Shown: piece by piece, positions 12,025 to 19,088 of the stretch
How positions within the stretch are numbered: the first letter of the stretch is position 1
How the letters are laid out: each line of letters opens with the position of its first letter
Source of the DNA: a virus
IMG/VR virus record: IMGVR_UViG_3300020478_000092
Location: 1 to 20,217 of that record
DNA: 20,217 bases
Strand: one strand, 5' to 3'
The notes under the pieces: model-generated
What the model was told of the DNA's origin: nothing
Database searches by the model: none
The model's input: the letters and a program-made list of their open reading frames with translations, nothing else
Program-made: the position numbers and the translations under genes

Positions 12025-13916
12025 TATCTTCTCCCGTCTGGTCGAGTGTTGAGTCGCATGGCCCCGAGCCGCCAGCCCACGCCAAGCCTTACACCGGTTG
12101 ACGCGTCATCGTCTGATTCTAAGCGAACCACGGCTTGTCGTGCTCGTCCTCTTAAATCAACCTTAGTCGTGCTCGCCGTTACTTGGTTGGTGCTCTTAGT
12201 GGTTAGTGTTTCGTTAGGAAAGTTTCTTGTTTTTAACACAAAATTCACCGCTTGATCTGAGCCTCCGTCCCCTAAAAACCGAACATCGGGTATGGCGTTT
12301 TGTATTTGGGTATAGCTATTGCCTATGGCATCCAGCGCAAAATCAGCCGATTCAATATAAACATTGTCCATGGGGGAGCCGTCCGCATCGTTTCCGGTTT
12401 CGTGTTTATAGACATAATTGTTTGTGTCTACTCCGGTTGCTCTCGGATAAGGCTGTACCCCTTCATCCAACCACGCATAACGGACAAGCTCTCCATAATA
12501 CCAAACCTGTTCTTGGTAGTTATAGACCACATAGCGATCTATTTCATCGGAGCTTCCCGAAGGATAAAACCATCCGACCTCGTTGAACTGTCTGTTTAAA
12601 TAGCCAAACGTTTTGAAAGACTGGTTTTGGTTAAAGTCATTAAACACATAGCTGTGCACACTACAAGGAAGTCTTTCGACCGTTCCGCTATATCTGTAAA
12701 AGCCCGAACGATCCATCCAAAAAACACCCGGAGGCGCGTTGACCGCAGCTTTAGGCGAAATCATGCCAACCCCTTGATTAATTAGATTAACTCCAAAAGT
12801 GTAAGGAGGACCAATAAACTGCATACTGTAAAGTGCATCATCTGTCCAAATCAGTATTTCTTGCCGTGAGCGAAGACCGCCGACAATTTGAGTTCCCGCC
12901 GAGAGCCTTAGTGAGCCGGCGGTGTTTGTAAGCTTAGGTTCCCACTGAGTAATATCTTCTTGGTCACACCAACAAATAAACATGGGGTCAATAACACTTG
13001 TTCTAGCTGTTCCACCAGCATTTAAAGGGTCTGCGCCCAAACAAATAACGTGTCGGTCAATATCACTTACCAAGGTTTGCAGTGCCAGTGTTGGCGGCAA
13101 GTTGGCGCCGATAGACGAATCACTTAGGCTCTTGGCCCTGACGCTCGTTCCGTTGTCCTCGGTCCAATAAAAAATGTCCCCTGCTCTTGGATTCATAATA
13201 AGGTCTTCTCCAAAATTATCGTGTGTCCATAACCTTAACTGGTTGTTAAACGCCAGTGCGGAAGCCGAACCAAAAGTTCCGTCGCCCCATGTACTAGCGC
13301 CATAACCTGAACCAGACACATAATCATCGAGGCCGACATTAATCTGATAGGCCCCAACCACACTTGACCCACCATTACCGCTGTCACTGCTGTTAGCTGT
13401 TACGGTGTCCCCGTCAGTGTCTTTGGCTTCAATGGTGTAGCTGTTAGCATTAACAATGGTTGCGATCTGATATTCTTGGTTTAAAACATTAGCAATAATA
13501 TTGCCGCCCAAACTAGCGGCACCGCTAAAGGTGACAAAATCATTTTGGCTTGCGCCATGGGCCGTGTCCGCTACGGTGATCGTAGCGTCCCCGTTGCTCG
13601 CTGAAAACGTTACGTCCCCCGCCGAAGTCGTGGCTCTTATAGGCGTTATATCGTAGAAACTGGTTCCGTCTTTGACGTAATACTTTAAAGTGGTTCCAAG
13701 CCCCAGATATTTGGTGCCGCCTAAAGACACCCAAGCATGGAGAGCACGTCCCGTTCCCAAATAAGTATCGGTTTGCTCTTTAGCCCAGCCACCTATTTTT
13801 TGAGGAAACCCTTTTTTAAACCGTACAAGATTACTGTCAAACCAGCCTCCCTGAGCGGAAAAGGCGGTTCCTTCTCGGTTTATTCCTGGGACCATTTCAA
13901 ACTTAGCGTAAGGCAT
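12024..13916 (-). CDS. P22 gp10-like tail hub/stabilisation protein (630 aa)
   Basis: The pattern of beta-strands and aromatic segments resembles the gp10-type tail accessory family that closes the portal of P22-like podoviruses. It opens with a segment requiring no signal (MVPGINREGTAFSAQGGWFDSNLVRF). It continues through repeated blade-like strands (WVSLGGTKYLGLG, LWTHDNFGEDLIMNPRAGDIFYW, ILIWTDDALYSMQFIGPPYTFGV), then GVGMISPKAAV and FNEVGWFYPSGSSDEIDRYVVYNY. Residues 97-187 form a Ser/Thr/Gly-rich insertion with its own pattern (TAHGASQNDFVTFSGA), probably an extra beta domain. The ATG overlaps the o-spanin stop (TAATG), with GAGGA upstream. Structural role is likely; equivalence to gp10 is by remembered resemblance. 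Confidence 0.78.
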   Translation of the reverse strand: MPYAKFEMVPGINREGTAFSAQGGWFDSNLVRFKKGFPQKIGGWAKEQTDTYLGTGRALHAWVSLGGTKYLGLGTTLKYYVKDGTSFYDITPIRATTSAGDVTFSASNGDATITVADTAHGASQNDFVTFSGAASLGGNIIANVLNQEYQIATIVNANSYTIEAKDTDGDTVTANSSDSGNGGSSVVGAYQINVGLDDYVSGSGYGASTWGDGTFGSASALAFNNQLRLWTHDNFGEDLIMNPRAGDIFYWTEDNGTSVRAKSLSDSSIGANLPPTLALQTLVSDIDRHVICLGADPLNAGGTARTSVIDPMFICWCDQEDITQWEPKLTNTAGSLRLSAGTQIVGGLRSRQEILIWTDDALYSMQFIGPPYTFGVNLINQGVGMISPKAAVNAPPGVFWMDRSGFYRYSGTVERLPCSVHSYVFNDFNQNQSFKTFGYLNRQFNEVGWFYPSGSSDEIDRYVVYNYQEQVWYYGELVRYAWLDEGVQPYPRATGVDTNNYVYKHETGNDADGSPMDNVYIESADFALDAIGNSYTQIQNAIPDVRFLGDGGSDQAVNFVLKTRNFPNETLTTKSTNQVTASTTKVDLRGRARQAVVRLESDDDASTGVRLGVGWRLGAMRLNTRPDGRR

Positions 13917-14302
13917 TATTCTTTTTCCTCTTCTTCGTCCATTTCCTTATAATAGCCGACAATGTGCAGAACTTGTTCTAAATATCGGGTAATTTCACCC
14001 ATCGTCATAGATAGATTCTCATACCCTTGACTGGTTAATCCATAATAAGCAACTCTAGGTTCTTCCCCCGCTTCTATTGCGTCTAAATATTCTTGCATCA
14101 CATCGGGGCTCAATATCCTCCACTCAATTGGAGCAGAATTAATTGCTTCGGGCAAGGGTGGATGATAAATAGGGGGTCGTTCAACCACACTAACCACTTC
14201 CACAGGCTTCACCTCTGGCTGCATTGCTGCCCTGTCTCCTAAAAGAGAAAAATTGGTGCAACCATTAATTAATAGTAGCGGTATTATCAGTAGTTTCTTC
14301 AT
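13916..14302 (-). CDS. o-spanin (Rz1-like outer-membrane lipoprotein)
   Basis: The protein starts MKKLLIIPLLLINGC: a short basic N-terminus, hydrophobic core and lipobox ending in Cys, so it is a predicted lipoprotein that would be lipidated and sorted to the outer membrane. A Pro-rich stretch follows (VVERPPIYHPPLPEA), usual for o-spanins, then a helical acidic C-terminus (EMDEEEEKE). It overlaps the upstream membrane coiled-coil gene by 38 bp in a different frame, the nested/overlapping arrangement characteristic of Rz/Rz1 pairs. I chose the ATG at 14302; a TTG three bases upstream is in frame but less likely. Together with the i-spanin it would bridge the periplasm and fuse the two membranes in the last step of lysis. 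At 128 residues it is long for an o-spanin. Confidence 0.75.
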   Translation of the reverse strand: MKKLLIIPLLLINGCTNFSLLGDRAAMQPEVKPVEVVSVVERPPIYHPPLPEAINSAPIEWRILSPDVMQEYLDAIEAGEEPRVAYYGLTSQGYENLSMTMGEITRYLEQVLHIVGYYKEMDEEEEKE

Positions 14303-14699
14303 CAAACTGCTCTGGATTAGTTATTGCATTTAAATTTTCTATTACCCGCGCTGAAGCCTTGTTCACCTTGCCTTCTAAAACCCCTGGTTCAGTGAGCGCC
14401 ATGCCCTCTAAATTAAAGTTAGCGAACTTGTTTCTCAGTTTAGCTACTTGAGCCATGCTCTCGTTGTATTGAGTATTAAGGCTCTGTATTTGTTGGGCCG
14501 TCTTTTTGGCCTGTTCCAACGCTTTTTTAATCTGCTCGTTTTGTTGTTGGATGGTGTTCTCCAATACTTGTTGATTATTAAGAGCCGTTTGTAGCTCTAC
14601 CTCAAGTTTTTCCATCTGCGCTGCGGTTATTAAATAATAGCCCATAAAAGCAGAACCTAGCGCTAATAATAGAACGCCCAAAAAAAGAGCTAGTTTCAC
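14265..14699 (-). CDS. i-spanin (Rz-like inner-membrane coiled-coil protein)
   Basis: A 144-residue protein with one N-terminal transmembrane segment (residues 3-25, LALFLGVLLLALGSAFMGYYLI) and a long heptad-rich coiled coil from about 28 to 90 (many Gln, Glu, Lys and Leu). The C-terminal tail is Asn/Thr/Glu-rich. This is the standard topology of an i-spanin, with the coil in the periplasm. The start is a GTG at 14699 that overlaps the upstream TGA stop (GTGA), with AAAGGCG as ribosome site. The lipoprotein gene begins inside its 3' end, as expected for a spanin pair. A structural membrane protein is the alternative, but the overlap with a lipoprotein makes spanin the better call. Confidence 0.75.
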   Translation of the reverse strand: MKLALFLGVLLLALGSAFMGYYLITAAQMEKLEVELQTALNNQQVLENTIQQQNEQIKKALEQAKKTAQQIQSLNTQYNESMAQVAKLRNKFANFNLEGMALTEPGVLEGKVNKASARVIENLNAITNPEQFDEETTDNTATIN

Positions 14700-15088
14700 T
14701 CTTTATCGCCTTTAAAGCTCTTAGAAGACCCAGACGTTCCTGCATAGAGCCCAAACCAAGCTGCTCCCGCACCTACAATAATAGATATAAGTCCAGACTG
14801 TTCAAAGGTTGGGTTCTCCAAGTCCATAAACCACATTACGGTGTAGTAAAGTAAAAAGATGTAAACCGTTAAAAAGGCTCTTGGAAAAATACGCCAGGAG
14901 TCCACAGCTTGCGCTAAAAAGATCCATCTCTGATGGGGGTTATTGTTCTTTGTGTCTTCTAAATCTCTTATTTTATCTTTTAAAGCACCAATCTCTTCGA
15001 CCATCGCCATGAATTTATTAAGATCCATTTCGACTTCGTTTCTATCCATGTCGCCTGCAAATCTGCCGCTTGGGTATCCGTCATTCAT
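14696..15088 (-). CDS. Holin candidate, GTA-holin-like membrane protein (130 aa)
   Basis: Residues 17-47 form an amphipathic or coiled-coil helix (MDLNKFMAMVEEIGALKDKIRDLE). Two hydrophobic segments follow: about 70-88 (RAFLTVYIFLLYYTVMWFM) and 97-117 (QSGLISIIVGAGAAWFGLYAG), then a short basic tail (SSKSFKGDK). The motif WRIFPR before the first segment and WFGLY in the last resemble the holin group found beside lysis genes in alphaproteobacterial and gene-transfer-agent-like phages. It lies directly before the spanin pair, a good holin position. GAGGTGA sits a few bases before the ATG. Another holin-like peptide occurs near the lysozyme, so which one triggers lysis is open. Confidence 0.6.
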   Translation of the reverse strand: MNDGYPSGRFAGDMDRNEVEMDLNKFMAMVEEIGALKDKIRDLEDTKNNNPHQRWIFLAQAVDSWRIFPRAFLTVYIFLLYYTVMWFMDLENPTFEQSGLISIIVGAGAAWFGLYAGTSGSSKSFKGDKE

Positions 15089-15096
15089 TTTTCACC

Positions 15097-15465
15097 TCAG
15101 TTCGCTAAAGGGTTTTCGTTTTTATTCTCAAGCCTGTTGACTTGATTTTCTATTGACTCTATTTTTGTCCCGGCTGTTGCTATATCTACATCAAGAACTT
15201 TAATCATGTTTTCGTTTTCTTGCACCGCGGGTAGTATGCTGTCGTCAATTGTTTTATTAATATAATTGACAGAAGTTTCTATGCCACTAAACCGCTCTTC
15301 AATTTCTTGTTGCGCGTCCTCTGTGCCCTCAATACGACCTACCTTTTTCTCTAGGTTCTCTATTCTGTTAATGTATGTAGCGCCCTGGTACCCGAAGCCA
15401 GCCAATGTGCTGACAATACCTGCCAAGGCAATTAATTGTGTTGTTTTTGATTGAAACCAGTCCAT
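15097..15465 (-). CDS. Membrane-anchored coiled-coil protein (122 aa)
   Basis: One N-terminal transmembrane helix (residues 9-31, TQLIALAGIVSTLAGFGYQGATY) followed by a long charged coiled coil (33-115: NRIENLEKKVGRIEG, FSGIETSVNYINKTI, IESIENQVNRLENK). I place the start at the ATG at 15465 because AGGAGG lies four bases upstream; a longer frame reading back to 15522 overlaps the preceding small gene and has no comparable site. The topology resembles XhlA-type or spanin-like lysis accessories. It sits between the basic 44-residue gene and the holin candidate. Function not established. Confidence 0.72.
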   Translation of the reverse strand: MDWFQSKTTQLIALAGIVSTLAGFGYQGATYINRIENLEKKVGRIEGTEDAQQEIEERFSGIETSVNYINKTIDDSILPAVQENENMIKVLDVDIATAGTKIESIENQVNRLENKNENPLAN

Positions 15466-15475: not shown

Positions 15476-15608
15476 AATAATATTTTGTTACTTTTCTTCT
15501 GTCGTTCATTACCGCACCACAACCCTTTGCAATGCCCGATTTTATTGGGCTTTTAGCCTTTCCTCCACGGGGCGTTTTCTTTCCCGATTTAACTGACTTT
15601 ACTTTCAT
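15474..15608 (-). CDS. Small basic phage protein with CGAVMNDRRKVTKYY ending (44 aa)
   Basis: A 44-residue, Lys/Arg/Gly-rich protein. The N-terminus is KVKSVKSGKKTPRGGKAKSP and the C-terminus reads GCGAVMNDRRKVTKYY. I recognise this C-terminal pattern from small proteins in other environmental tailed phages. Its ATG overlaps the stop of the preceding secreted-protein gene by ATGA, and its own stop overlaps the ribosome site of the next gene, so it is embedded in a coupled series. The strong positive charge suggests nucleic-acid or membrane contact. Function unknown. Confidence 0.75.
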   Translation of the reverse strand: MKVKSVKSGKKTPRGGKAKSPIKSGIAKGCGAVMNDRRKVTKYY

Positions 15609-17941
15609 AGCTTAGGCTGCATATCCATTAAATTTTTCATTCCAGTTAAACTTTCGCCATATAAACCAACAAATGCCGAAGTATTATCCGGTATGGATAC
15701 ATTACCATAAATTGCTTTTGGTTCATACCACTCGGACGCGTCCGCTAGAGTTACTTGCCTGTACGCACTAAAGCCAGGTACATAGCCCATATAGGCAACA
15801 AGTTGGCTGGAATCACCGTATTCCCCTGTTTCCTGCTGCTCTTGCTCTAGCTCTTCTTGTTGGTTCTGTATGTTTTGGGCCACAATTTGATCGGCAATCT
15901 GGTCTGCTTCACTTGCTGTCATGCCTCCTGAGACCGCCGTATCAATTTGACCCTGCATGTCTTGTACTTGTGCATCGGTGCCTGTTGTTTGTGCGCCCCC
16001 TACCGTTGGCATAAGGTCTACGGAAACAGAAGCATCGGCAGTAGAGGTCATGGTGTCCGTGGTCCCCGGTCCTTGGTCCGTGGTTGTTGTTTCTGTGTCC
16101 ATGGTCCCCGAACCACTGAACGAGGAGCTCCCTGCATCAGCAGCGCTCATAGACAAAATTTGTTGTGTTTGCGCAGCCGAACTCGCAACCTGAGCAGAAA
16201 TACTTGGTGAGTTATTTGTGCTTATAGAGCCACCGGATACCGAAGACACTACAGCGGTAGCTTGGGAACTAGAAACGCTCGTAGAGCCGCCATAAGAGCC
16301 CCCAGACGAGGCTGAGGTTCCCGTTGCCTGTGCAGAAGTCCCAGAAGTGGTACCGCTTACACTGTTTGTCGCTGCCCTAATGGTATTAGCAACAACATTT
16401 AATTGTTCGGCTTTTTTGTTGTCCTTCTTGGTTTCATTCTCTGCGACAGCAATTTCGACAGCTTCTTCTCTGTCCTCGCTCTCTTCTTCAACTGCCTCCG
16501 TATCCTCCAATTCTCCATCTTCATCCTCAGATAAAGCAGCAATATTTTCAGCTTCCTCTTGCTCAACCCATTCCTCCAATTCTTCTATGGTTTCAAACTC
16601 TAAAAATTCAACGGCTTCCTCTTCAAAAAACTCTTCTATAAGCTCTTCGTGTTCAAAGTGGTCCAATAAAACGGTGTCTATTTCTGGAAGATCGTAGTCC
16701 ACGAACAAAAGGTCTTCCTCATAAAACTCTTCAAAAATAAACACCTCTTCAACGTAGTCGAAGACAAGAGCCTCCTCTTCAAGGAAAGCCTCCAATTCTT
16801 CCACAAACACTGGTTCTTCAAAAAATGGCTCGAAATACTCCTCCTCAAAAAAAGGCTCGAAATACTCCTCTTCTTCAAAATAAGTCTCTATTTCCCATGG
16901 CTCATCAAGAAAACTATCCACTCCTTCATAGTAGTAATCCTCTTGGAAAAACTCGTCTTCATAGTACGAACCGTCTGCAAAATAAGTGCTTTCATCTTCA
17001 TAACCATATTGGTCATAGTCGTCTTCATATCCATACATGTCCTCGTATGCGTTGTAAATTTCATACTCTACCACATACCCTGGACACGCGGGGGAGTGTT
17101 GTGAGTCCAAAGTACATTCATAATCAAATAAGTCGTCCCAATAATTAGGGCACTGAGTAGAATACAGTCCATCTAAATCACATTGCTGTGTCAAGTACGC
17201 AGCAGCATATCCGGCACAAGCAGTGTTGTTTAAAGGGTTGCTACAATCAAGAGCGTTCCCAGAGCCTAGGCCATATAAAGAACCGCCGTTTTCCAATAAA
17301 GTGTTTGCTGCCGTGGCGTTCCAATTGGTGTTGACACAAGTGCCTGCTACATTCGTTGTGCCAGTGCTACATTCGTCATGGAACAAGTAAGTGTATAGTT
17401 CGTCCGCTGCACCTTGTTCTCCAATTAATACATCGTGGTTAATAATATTAAGAGCGCCATAACGATACTCAAAGCTGTCATCTGCTTTCCACAACACAAC
17501 TTCAAAACTATTATCTGTGTTGCTTCTGTTATATTCTCGTAAGTTATACCACCCAAAAACTGTTTTATCGGTAAAATTCTTAGCTAAAACCTTTGATCCA
17601 TTATCTCTTATTAAGTCAGTCCAGAAAGGATAGAGGGTATATGTAATTTCAGGTAAAGGATCAGGTGTGTAGTCATTACAATAGCCTCCTGACGACCCAA
17701 AATGTAGGCACCCATTAGTAGCCATTCGTGCAGTAGTAAAATCCTCGCCATAAAAAGTAAACGTAAAATCTAGTGTAAAGGCTGAAGATACTTGGTCATC
17801 ACCAACAGCCATATTAGTAGTGTTTTGCTCATTGACTAGATTAAAAAGGCTTTGATCTGCCTCGTATACATAAATTGCATTAAGTGTAGAAGCAAATAAA
17901 AGAGCCGATAAGCTAGCTGCCTTTATTAAACTCTTTAACAC
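15605..17941 (-). CDS. Secreted multidomain protein: nidogen-like domain, Cys repeats, acidic-aromatic tract (778 aa)
   Basis: Begins with a GTG at 17941 (AGAGG five bases upstream) and a clear Sec signal peptide (MLKSLIKAASLSALLFASTLNA, probable cleavage after Ala22). Residues 30-175 resemble a nidogen-type (NIDO) beta domain: FTFYGEDF ... ATNGCLHFG ... YPFWTDL ... FEVVLWKADDSFEYRYG. Residues 190-290 are Cys-rich, with three C-x8/9-C units (Cys 233/242, 254/264, 276/286), the second Cys in a CxxY context. Residues 292-500 are extremely acidic and aromatic, including a tandem YFEPFFEEE. Residues 520-650 are Ser/Thr/Gly-rich linker. The C-terminal 70 residues (LVAYMGYVPGFSAYR ... ASEWYEPKAIYGN) form a compact block that I recall recurring in environmental phage proteins. 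It overlaps the previous secreted gene by 29 bp. Role unknown; surface adhesion or envelope modification is possible. Confidence 0.8.
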   Translation of the reverse strand: MLKSLIKAASLSALLFASTLNAIYVYEADQSLFNLVNEQNTTNMAVGDDQVSSAFTLDFTFTFYGEDFTTARMATNGCLHFGSSGGYCNDYTPDPLPEITYTLYPFWTDLIRDNGSKVLAKNFTDKTVFGWYNLREYNRSNTDNSFEVVLWKADDSFEYRYGALNIINHDVLIGEQGAADELYTYLFHDECSTGTTNVAGTCVNTNWNATAANTLLENGGSLYGLGSGNALDCSNPLNNTACAGYAAAYLTQQCDLDGLYSTQCPNYWDDLFDYECTLDSQHSPACPGYVVEYEIYNAYEDMYGYEDDYDQYGYEDESTYFADGSYYEDEFFQEDYYYEGVDSFLDEPWEIETYFEEEEYFEPFFEEEYFEPFFEEPVFVEELEAFLEEEALVFDYVEEVFIFEEFYEEDLLFVDYDLPEIDTVLLDHFEHEELIEEFFEEEAVEFLEFETIEELEEWVEQEEAENIAALSEDEDGELEDTEAVEEESEDREEAVEIAVAENETKKDNKKAEQLNVVANTIRAATNSVSGTTSGTSAQATGTSASSGGSYGGSTSVSSSQATAVVSSVSGGSISTNNSPSISAQVASSAAQTQQILSMSAADAGSSSFSGSGTMDTETTTTDQGPGTTDTMTSTADASVSVDLMPTVGGAQTTGTDAQVQDMQGQIDTAVSGGMTASEADQIADQIVAQNIQNQQEELEQEQQETGEYGDSSQLVAYMGYVPGFSAYRQVTLADASEWYEPKAIYGNVSIPDNTSAFVGLYGESLTGMKNLMDMQPKL
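16811..16864 (-). repeat. Tandem 27-nt repeat coding YFEPFFEEE
   Basis: Residues 360-368 and 369-377 of the 778-residue secreted protein are YFEPFFEEE and YFEPFFEEP, coded by adjacent near-identical 27-nt units. The units lie inside a longer stretch (residues 292-465) made mostly of Glu, Asp, Tyr and Phe. Confidence 0.85.
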
Positions 17942-19088
17942 AAGTGCCTCTAGTTTTTCTAAGCCCCTCTTCGTTCAATGTACCTCTACATTTACTTACA
18001 TAACTATCTTTAGCTTCTTTATAGTCCGGTCGGTCTTTAGGGTTAGCTGCCCAGGCTACCTTTGCCTCGTCGCCTATCTTTCCAAAATAAGGACAAGGAG
18101 TGCCTGCCATCATCATAGATTTAAAAACTCGTGGGTCTAAGCACAGTACAGACACGGCCGCTACCTTCATTCCAGTGTCATAAAGATACTTAGAAAGCTT
18201 TAGCCTTTCACAGTTTTCGTCTCTAACTGTTCTACCCGCAGAGAGTCCAAAGACCTGTCCTTGAAAGGCTCCAGATCGACCAACCGTACACAGATCCTGG
18301 CTGTAGCTCATAATGCTGGGCGCAATGGCTGAAGCAGGAGGCGCCTCGGTCTTAATGTTCTGATTAATGGTTTGTTCGCTCTTCGACTCATTAATATTTC
18401 TGTTTGTGTTGTCAGAGGTGTTTCTGTTCTCGTTCACGTTTTTATTGTTTGTGGTCACATTCGATTCAGAAGTCGACTGATTTACATTCGTGTTTTTGTT
18501 CTCACTGGTCGAAGTATTTACATTCGTGTTGGTGTTGCTATTGGTACTTGTACTTGTACTGGTGTTGTTATTGTTGTTTGTGTTGGTACTTGTACTGGTG
18601 TTGTTATTGTTTGTTGAAACACTCGATGTTGATGTCGATGTGTTGGTGTTCACATTGTTATTGGTGTTCGTCGCTGTTGACGTCGAGGTGTTGGTGTTTG
18701 TATTAGTATTAGTATTCGTATTCGTACCAGTTGATGTGCTTGTGTTTACGTTTGTATTGCTATTGGTGTTTGTCGCAGTCGACGTACTGGTGTTGTTATT
18801 GGTATTGGTGTTCGTATTCGTATTCGTATTGGTGTTCGTCCCAGTCGACGTCGTGGTTGTCGTATTGGTGTTAGTGTTAGTGTTTGTATTAGTGTTAGTG
18901 TTAGTGTTAGTGTTCGTATTGGTGTTCGTATTGGTGTTGGTAGTCGTCGTGGTTGACGTGGTTTCTAAAGAGTTTTGCTCACAGTATTGGGACCCTGCTG
19001 TGCAGTCGCCGGTTTGATCCGCGCTAACATTCGTTGCTACAAGCAACAAACCTAGCCAAATCGCTCCAAAAATGCCCCATTTTTTCAC
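17913..19088 (-). CDS. Secreted Thr/Asn-repeat protein with Cys-rich C-terminal domain (391 aa)
   Basis: GTG start at 19088 with AAAGGAG six bases upstream. The signal peptide is MKKWGIFGAIWLGLLLVATNVSA (cleavage after about Ala23). A short segment with Cys29 and Cys36 follows, then about 205 residues (41-246) of Thr-Asn dipeptides interspersed with Ser, Ala, Gly and Val. The C-terminal 145 residues are a normal globular domain with six Cys (267, 293, 316, 332, 367, 383), including ENCERLKLSKYLYDTGMKVAAVSVLC and MAGTPCPYFGKIG. I recall this end block from hypothetical proteins of other environmental phages. Export plus eight Cys suggests disulfides formed in the periplasm. It overlaps the next secreted gene by 29 bp, so the two are made together. 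Function unknown: envelope spacer, decoy or surface protein are possibilities. Confidence 0.8.
   Translation of the reverse strand: MKKWGIFGAIWLGLLLVATNVSADQTGDCTAGSQYCEQNSLETTSTTTTTNTNTNTNTNTNTNTNTNTNTNTNTNTTTTTSTGTNTNTNTNTNTNTNNNTSTSTATNTNSNTNVNTSTSTGTNTNTNTNTNTNTSTSTATNTNNNVNTNTSTSTSSVSTNNNNTSTSTNTNNNNNTSTSTSTNSNTNTNVNTSTSENKNTNVNQSTSESNVTTNNKNVNENRNTSDNTNRNINESKSEQTINQNIKTEAPPASAIAPSIMSYSQDLCTVGRSGAFQGQVFGLSAGRTVRDENCERLKLSKYLYDTGMKVAAVSVLCLDPRVFKSMMMAGTPCPYFGKIGDEAKVAWAANPKDRPDYKEAKDSYVSKCRGTLNEEGLRKTRGTCVKEFNKGS
17947..17951 (-). promoter_or_regulatory. Ribosome-binding site AGAGG for the GTG start at 17941
   Basis: AGAGG lies five bases before GTG 17941 and inside the 3' end of the upstream gene. 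It supports the GTG as the real start of the signal-peptide-bearing protein, since no nearby ATG would preserve the signal peptide. Confidence 0.65.
18351..18968 (-). repeat. Thr-Asn/Ser low-complexity repeat region
   Basis: Codes residues 41-246 of the 391-residue secreted protein. The base unit is the 6-nt Thr-Asn codon pair, but the synonymous codons vary widely (gtg/att/ttg/tta/ttc patterns on the + strand), so amino-acid identity is conserved better than DNA. A higher-order unit NTSTST(A/G)TNTN recurs, starting near 18669, 18726, 18774 and 18838. A 26-nt direct repeat is at 18550-18575 and 18586-18611, a period of 36 nt (12 codons). Confidence 0.9.

Follow-up and report, generated by a model that had tools for sequence, protein, structure and literature searches.

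What might a phage do with a large, strongly acidic and apparently exported protein that is encoded among its lysis genes? The question is raised by the IMG/VR virus record IMGVR_UViG_3300020478_000092, which was analysed over its whole length of 20,217 bases (here called the window). A first-pass annotation, made from the sequence of the window, had proposed a two-gene, envelope-directed system in which an exported protein with a nidogen-like (NIDO) domain and an acidic-aromatic tract (the NIDO/acidic protein) is coupled to an exported Thr-Asn-rich protein (TN). We found that the unit consists of three genes rather than two, as a gene for a membrane coiled-coil protein goes along with the pair wherever enough sequence was available. 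Tentatively, and on the strength of sequence comparisons, we suggest that the module may encode a Sec-exported, envelope-binding complex that acts around phage release, with the NIDO/acidic protein as its binding component. No paper on the three-gene module was found in a literature search that covered few subscription papers.

Three genes that travel together

Scanning IMG/VR yielded 69 relatives of the NIDO/acidic protein, referred to here as window-type loci; for every count given below, loci that were too short on the side required were excluded. TN was encoded within 900 nt on the upstream side in all 50 window-type loci that had at least 700 nt of upstream sequence, and the two ORFs (open reading frames) mostly overlapped by 23–29 nt when the outermost start was taken. 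The 29 bp overlap described for the window was borne out by the ORF coordinates, and the sequence AGAGG stands just 5′ of the GTG start codon (by eye). A second clade of NIDO-like proteins came to light next to TN at L167, a locus in a metagenome bin from a pond, and 80 of the 94 loci encoding a relative were kept. TN was directly upstream in 75 of 77 of these, the two exceptions being L269 and L270, confirming that the two genes co-occur in relatives.

Relatives of the TN domain were encoded in at least 598 of the 600 IMG/VR stretches examined, and 80 of these loci were retained as a TN-centred set (no TN ORF was recovered by script at L123, L124, L133 and L135). Within 1.3 kb after TN, an exported-type acidic ORF was present in 36 of 46 testable loci, compared with 0 of 44 for other long ORFs. 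The third gene, encoding a coiled coil that ends in NPL, follows all 39 full-length window-type ORFs with at least 1.5 kb of downstream sequence and is present in 43/43 TN-centred loci with sufficient downstream sequence. The search model for the latter count includes HTVC115P gp52, which does not end in NPL, and a recount requiring NPL left the figure of 43/43 unchanged. In the second clade, searched with the protein of L195, a coiled coil was found downstream in 69/69 loci. TN, an acidic protein and a coiled coil thus constitute a widespread three-gene phage module.

The same genes occur in the same order in named phages. TN was detected in 11 phage records, six of which are Pelagibacter phages, and the succession of TN, acidic exported-type protein and membrane coiled coil was observed in HTVC115P (as gp54, gp53 and gp52), HTVC023P, HTVC033P, HTVC202P, Baldr and Mosig, as well as in the uncultured phage MedDCM-OCT-S28-C10. 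Existing annotations of these genes read hypothetical, 'carbohydrate binding domain' (HTVC033P and MedDCM) or DUF2730 (the MedDCM coiled coil). The pelagiphage modules differ from that of the window in their N-terminal heads, and homology of the C-terminal tail was seen with the HTVC115P group but not with the HTVC023P type. HTVC023P and Baldr also have one additional small gene; in Baldr (L190, 1290–1478), a 62 aa membrane-type protein (phrog_33111) is encoded between TN and the acidic gene. In the Roseobacter phages CRP-207 and CRP-810, TN has another partner, after which comes a lysozyme gene.

Profile comparison showed the window coiled coil to be homologous to the pooled proteins of HTVC023P, HTVC033P, Mosig, Baldr, HTVC202P, MedDCM and HTVC115P (probability 97.7, E 1.4e-12). 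The second-clade coiled coil matched this cultured-type set (probability 80.7, E 1.3e-5) and showed no significant match to that of the window clade (probability 5.7); its putative identity as the same component rests mainly on its position, membrane stretch and NPL end. Across loci L002–L274 and the window, 182 of 199 coiled-coil ORFs ended in NPL, compared with 1 of 2957 other ORFs, a contrast that is partly built in, as the models used to select the 199 themselves contain NPL ends. The 12 listed exceptions are, like HTVC115P gp52, coiled-coil ORFs with no NPL end. It is possible that the NPL end serves as a C-terminal recognition tag. Several TN loci, L079, L091, L094 and L097 among them, have shortly after TN a second coiled-coil ORF that lacks NPL and again resembles HTVC115P gp52.

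Architecture and constraint of the NIDO/acidic protein

The gene for the NIDO/acidic protein is real. Its full-length relatives form a set of 44 proteins, counting the window copy, of which 34 were placed in alignment A2 (in L030 and L055 the start region of the NIDO domain is altered or broken). In nine pairs, the non-synonymous divergence (dN) of the NIDO domain was 0.00–0.14 against a synonymous divergence (dS) of 0.21–2.06, with some dS values saturated, and the domain is under strong purifying selection. The remaining regions mostly showed dN below dS, with the exception of the signal peptide in two pairs. Among the 44 proteins, the NIDO and Cys-rich part is the most conserved portion, and the acidic tract drifts in sequence while keeping its composition.

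The signal peptide, called by eye, agrees with the first-pass annotation: a Lys-containing N-terminus and a hydrophobic stretch lead to a candidate cleavage site between STLNA and IYV, and hydrophobic, signal-peptide-like N-termini are found across relatives and clades. From these N-termini we infer that Sec export of both the NIDO/acidic protein and TN is plausible. By eye, neither protein has a lipobox, or a Cys at its predicted cleavage site.

The whole protein matched no Pfam or PHROGs family at E 0.5, and the NIDO match was obtained only with isolated N-terminal domains (N-domains), probably because the acidic bias masks NIDO in the whole protein. Scanned alone, 9 of 10 N-domains of the family matched Pfam NIDO (PF06119), with a best E value of 3.6e-5. 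The N-domain of the second clade is homologous to that of the window (hhalign probability 98.0, E 2.5e-13, 30% identity over 142 columns). The nidogen-like domain that had been proposed is therefore upheld by sequence profile, with the qualification that the window copy itself remains under the curated cut-off. We use the label NIDO-like, since the second-clade heads match neither Pfam nor PDB. One Nonomuraea record in a plasmid collection matched the second-clade NIDO region (E 2e-7), and neither the window protein nor the second-clade protein had any match in the phage collection. AlphaFold2 modelling of the whole protein gave a mean pLDDT of 33, and the model was discarded.

By profile, the family N-domain is related to a homologue of a Flavobacterium gliding adhesin. 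The match is to PDB chain 8gl6_D, deposited as RemA (E 6.2e-9), and covers the N-terminal region of the chain. RemA is a mobile cell surface lectin, according to the title of a reference in PMC10994853. The accessible text of that article names the substrate trapped in 8gl6 as RemZ, a RemA homologue, and describes only its C-terminal domain as well resolved; consequently, 8gl6 provides no NIDO structure. Compared with the RemA-type chain, the window protein scores below the NIDO cut-off, is phage-borne and has a different C-terminal part. This kinship suggests an adhesive role for the domain.

The adjoining Cys-rich stretch has invariant Cys columns in the family alignment. Its C-x-GY region (17072–17371) bears a weak resemblance to Plasmodium CPW_WPC (7 of 10 members, best E 0.038). 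This resemblance and the cathepsin L matches of the stretch (E 0.055) were regarded as chance or unproven.

The annotation had also reported an acidic-aromatic tract of over 170 residues. In agreement with this, the 210 residues from 291 to 500 contain 88 D/E (42%), 45 F/Y/W (21%) and a single K/R. The densest 150-residue stretch has 68 D/E, whereas 2000 shuffled versions of the protein, scanned at every fifth position, reached at most 49, and all 44 full-length proteins keep this composition, with 59–74 D/E and 0–6 K/R per 150 residues. The tandem YFEPFFEEE singled out in the annotation is present, and corresponds to a 27 nt DNA duplication at 16818–16870 with a 96% match. It is not a conserved feature: two EPFxEE copies occur in 3 of the 44 proteins, namely the window protein and its near-copies in L002 and L004, and the tandem is a local duplication.

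The tail recurs in several groups. A hidden Markov model (HMM) of the tail detected it in all 57 complete window-type ORFs and, when built leaving the second clade out, in all 71 complete second-clade ORFs. The tail of the window protein has homologues in a group that includes HTVC115P gp53 (probability 96.4, E 1.2e-9), and its comparison with HTVC023P-type tails was not significant (probability 4.0). Members of the tail family matched no Pfam family, and no PHROG better than E 0.069. No Pfam family indicating a type IX secretion system (T9SS) C-terminal domain was found in the whole protein (E 0.5) or in its last 120 residues (E 1); no dedicated T9SS model was run. At the other end, the pelagiphage-type heads gave weak matches to CBM_4_9 in two of five scanned (HTVC033P, E 0.012; MedDCM, E 0.0026), both below the cut-off.

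Binding-type heads joined to a conserved C-terminal docking tail are frequent in phage fibres. The NIDO/acidic protein might then be a virion component, serving as a tail or head-fibre adhesin with an N-terminal helix that only resembles a signal peptide, and a virion structural gene (phrog_3287) adjoins the cassette. We consider this improbable, as signal-peptide-like N-termini recur across clades, the conserved Cys of TN suit an oxidizing compartment, and the second-clade genes accompany lysis genes.

The TN protein and a comparison with curli

Residues 192–341 of TN match phrog_20531 (function unknown; E 5.5e-13). The four Cys of its C-terminal domain are present in 51 of 51 aligned rows of alignment A4, most of which were chosen by a pattern demanding the first two Cys, with near-copies thinned. 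The model of this domain had a mean pLDDT of 76.6, with block means above 90 over fragment residues 71–160. It matched no PDB chain at E 0.001 (best E 0.38; best Z 3.0 among 829 chains aligned), which does not prove that the modelled fold would be new, and nine BFVD entries at E ≤ 0.001, which are uncharacterized or unnamed. Whole TN matched no Pfam family at E 0.5, a search in which composition bias could mask a match, curlin repeats included.

TN-domain matches also occur in bacteria. They were found in 15 of 60 genomes of the family to which L176 belongs, some with two or three (loci L176, L178 and L184–L189), and in 1 of 190 genomes from its class, namely the genome of L176 itself. The two chromosomal TN copies that were read are Asn-rich and of exported type. 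At L176–L180, the next long ORF after TN is not acidic.

An exported protein rich in Asn/Thr repeats, with Asn-rich, exported-type counterparts in one bacterial family, might alternatively build a fibre or matrix outside the cell that would keep infected or sister cells attached to one another ('sibling capture'), as a counterpart of the curli modules of pelagiphages. Curli modules of pelagiphages are described in the accessible text of PMC7029224, PMC9599517 and PMC9004378, and in the first two a curli function in phages is proposed. The curli (type VIII) modules of HTVC008M and Melnitz likewise comprise exported repeat-rich and binding-domain proteins from pelagiphages or a relative, but their gene families differ from those of the window. 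Phage curli as such were ruled out, in that the outer-membrane pore CsgG was found in 0 of 18 TN-bearing records, although these records may be fragments; in a control, the CsgG search gave matches in 4 of 14 genomes. The phage records bearing CsgG (10) and those bearing TN (11) share no member, as might be expected of counterparts, but with record numbers this small such a result would be expected by chance. In addition, the curli phage Melnitz is described in the consulted part of PMC9004378 as causing no clumping under the culture conditions used. Taking these points together, a fibre or matrix function seems unlikely.

Several features of the curli-bearing records were noted alongside. In HTVC008M (L077, 9560–11963), the curli genes are adjoined by the gene for a FecR-type protein that has an acidic aromatic stretch, and by one for a protein that seemingly joins a PA14-like head to curlin-type repeats, another head-plus-repeat design (both by eye). 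A record of 1,499 bases named Salmonella phage S.Kent 1-2-1 (OR851715.1; H48) contains a CsgG-like gene and is possibly host DNA.

Lysis setting of the module

On the minus strand of the window, the genes run in the order lysozyme, TN, NIDO/acidic, membrane coiled coil, holin-like, Rz-like, Rz1-like and virion protein (a relative of phrog_3287). The claim that the pair sits between lysis genes is therefore true in the window, with a lysozyme upstream and Rz/Rz1-like spanins (PHROGs) downstream. The coordinates of these features are collected in Table 1.

Table 1. Features of the module and its neighbouring genes in the window
Feature	Position	Strand	Evidence
NIDO/acidic exported-type protein, 778 aa, GTG start	15605..17941	-	ORF; relatives in IMG/VR; dN < dS in most regions and pairs
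Predicted signal peptide, residues 1–22	17876..17941	-	By eye; hydrophobic N-termini of relatives
NIDO-like domain, residues 30–190	17372..17854	-	Pfam NIDO; PDB profile match; dN/dS
Cys-rich stretch with C-x-GY motifs, residues 191–290	17072..17371	-	Invariant Cys columns; weak CPW_WPC match
Acidic-aromatic tract, residues 291–500	16442..17071	-	Composition
Ser/Thr/Gly/Gln-rich linker, residues 501–689	15875..16441	-	Sequence; partly with the lowest conservation in the protein
Conserved C-terminal tail domain, residues 690–778	15608..15874	-	Tail HMM; profile match to HTVC115P gp53 group
Thr-Asn-rich exported-type protein (TN), 391 aa	17913..19088	-	ORF; residues 192–341 match phrog_20531
TN C-terminal domain, four Cys	17916..18398	-	Alignment rows; model blocks
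Single-pass membrane coiled-coil protein ending NPLAN, third module gene	15097..15465	-	Homology to cultured-phage coiled coils
Holin-like membrane protein, phrog_10198 (function unknown in PHROGs)	14696..15088	-	PHROGs; hydrophobic stretches by eye
Rz-like inner spanin	14265..14699	-	phrog_739, E 2.3e-7
Rz1-like outer spanin	13916..14305	-	phrog_812, E 9.1e-11; lipobox-like LLINGC by eye
Endolysin, phage lysozyme	19100..19627	-	PF00959, E 2.8e-10

In the second clade, 69/69 loci with enough sequence run from the NIDO gene through the coiled coil and a holin-like gene to a GH19-type endolysin gene. Endolysin-type genes also lie near the module in HTVC023P (peptidase M15) and HTVC033P (lysozyme), as in the window. 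Among the 69 window-type loci, many of which are short, 52 encode a relative of the holin-like protein and 19 a relative of the lysozyme, Rz or Rz1. An endolysin search with six enzymes gave matches in 12 of these 69 loci, and in 26/80 and 0/80 loci of the two other sets; the result of 0/80 fits the GH19-type enzyme of that clade. The lysis setting is thus well established in the window and the second clade; for other groups it is unproven. At L013 (5990–6737) and L055 (7423–7906), Rz and Rz1 matches were found on the strand opposite the module.

This setting leads to a further possibility, that the three proteins act in lysis directly, helping to break the outer layers or to time their breaking in the manner of an added spanin or a periplasmic antiholin. 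Such a role would account for the invariant second-clade order of module, holin-like gene and endolysin, for the position of the module between lysozyme and holin-like, Rz and Rz1 genes in the window, and for the lysis-gene relatives at window-type loci. The topology of the coiled-coil protein is also spanin-like (by eye), and T4 RI is a secreted periplasmic regulator of lysis according to the accessible text of PMC8385771. Conversely, Rz/Rz1-like genes are already present in the window, and the missing lipobox means that neither exported protein has the feature of the outer partner of a two-component spanin. A binding-type head that varies between groups would be unexpected for a part of the lysis machinery, and no lysis gene is annotated near the module in the parts of HTVC115P, HTVC202P, Baldr and Mosig that were inspected. 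On balance, we regard a direct lysis role as somewhat doubtful, yet nearly as likely as envelope binding around release.

Proposed role of the module around phage release

Our preferred explanation of a surface-binding complex acting around release is drawn from the differing binding-type heads on an acidic stalk, the conservation of the NIDO domain within its clade and the lysis setting. The preserved gene order, the tail common to several groups and the adjacency of the module to holin-like and endolysin genes in the window and the second clade support it further. In the proposed mechanism, TN and the NIDO/acidic protein would cross the inner membrane by Sec, and the tail and the Cys-containing TN domain would dock on one another or on the envelope, and the coiled-coil protein would anchor them in the inner membrane. 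The acidic tract would form an extended spacer, or stalk, presenting a head that would bind a conserved surface ligand, such as a glycan or an outer-membrane component. The outer surface could in this way be covered or altered, so that progeny would get away without being bound again by the infected cell or by fragments of it. The most likely benefit would then fall around release.

Such a benefit would be comparable in aim to that of T5 Llp, by another route. Llp is a phage-made envelope protein said, in the accessible text of PMC9586334, to keep phages from adsorbing to infected cells and to the fragments left by lysis. T5 Llp and Cor are small lipoproteins directed at one receptor, whereas the window encodes a 778 aa protein without a lipobox (by eye) in a three-gene set.

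A number of observations weigh against this explanation. The surface ligand, the location of the proteins and their effect on the infected cell are all putative. Many receptor-binding domains diversify, whereas the NIDO domain is conserved; the window N-domain matches Pfam NIDO at E 0.008 (16.6–17.8 bits, below the curated cut-off of 25); and, in the second clade, five heads scanned alone matched no Pfam family and the head profile matched no PDB chain. The module itself is not uniform: in the remaining 10 of 46 TN loci, the ORF with a hydrophobic N-terminus has 13–23 D/E per 80 residues (threshold, 24), the TN partner in CRP-207 has no acidic tract, and HTVC115P gp52 has no NPL end. The synteny of the second clade with lysis genes suits a direct lysis role equally well, and the four cultured phages without an annotated lysis gene near the module do not favour a function tied to release. 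Finally, the accessible text of PMC9586334 places the production of exclusion proteins early in infection, which, by analogy, would be a mismatch in timing with late-acting lysis genes.

More broadly, and still tentatively, it is possible that these genes encode an unrecognized envelope machine of aquatic phages, composed of a Thr/Asn scaffold, an acidic stalk with swappable heads and a docking tail, and an NPL coiled coil. SAR11 phages, the window clade and the second NIDO clade would carry the machine, which in the two clades would form part of the lysis region, as one more kind of lysis or post-lysis component alongside holin, endolysin and spanin. Genes of the module are found in six cultured Pelagibacter phages, whose hosts are among the most abundant bacteria of the ocean, and are annotated there as hypothetical or with a weak domain name. 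The question of their function can be addressed in cultured phage–host pairs. Should it prove to act at release or re-adsorption, the module would give insight into how these phages avoid the loss of progeny to cell debris in dilute water.

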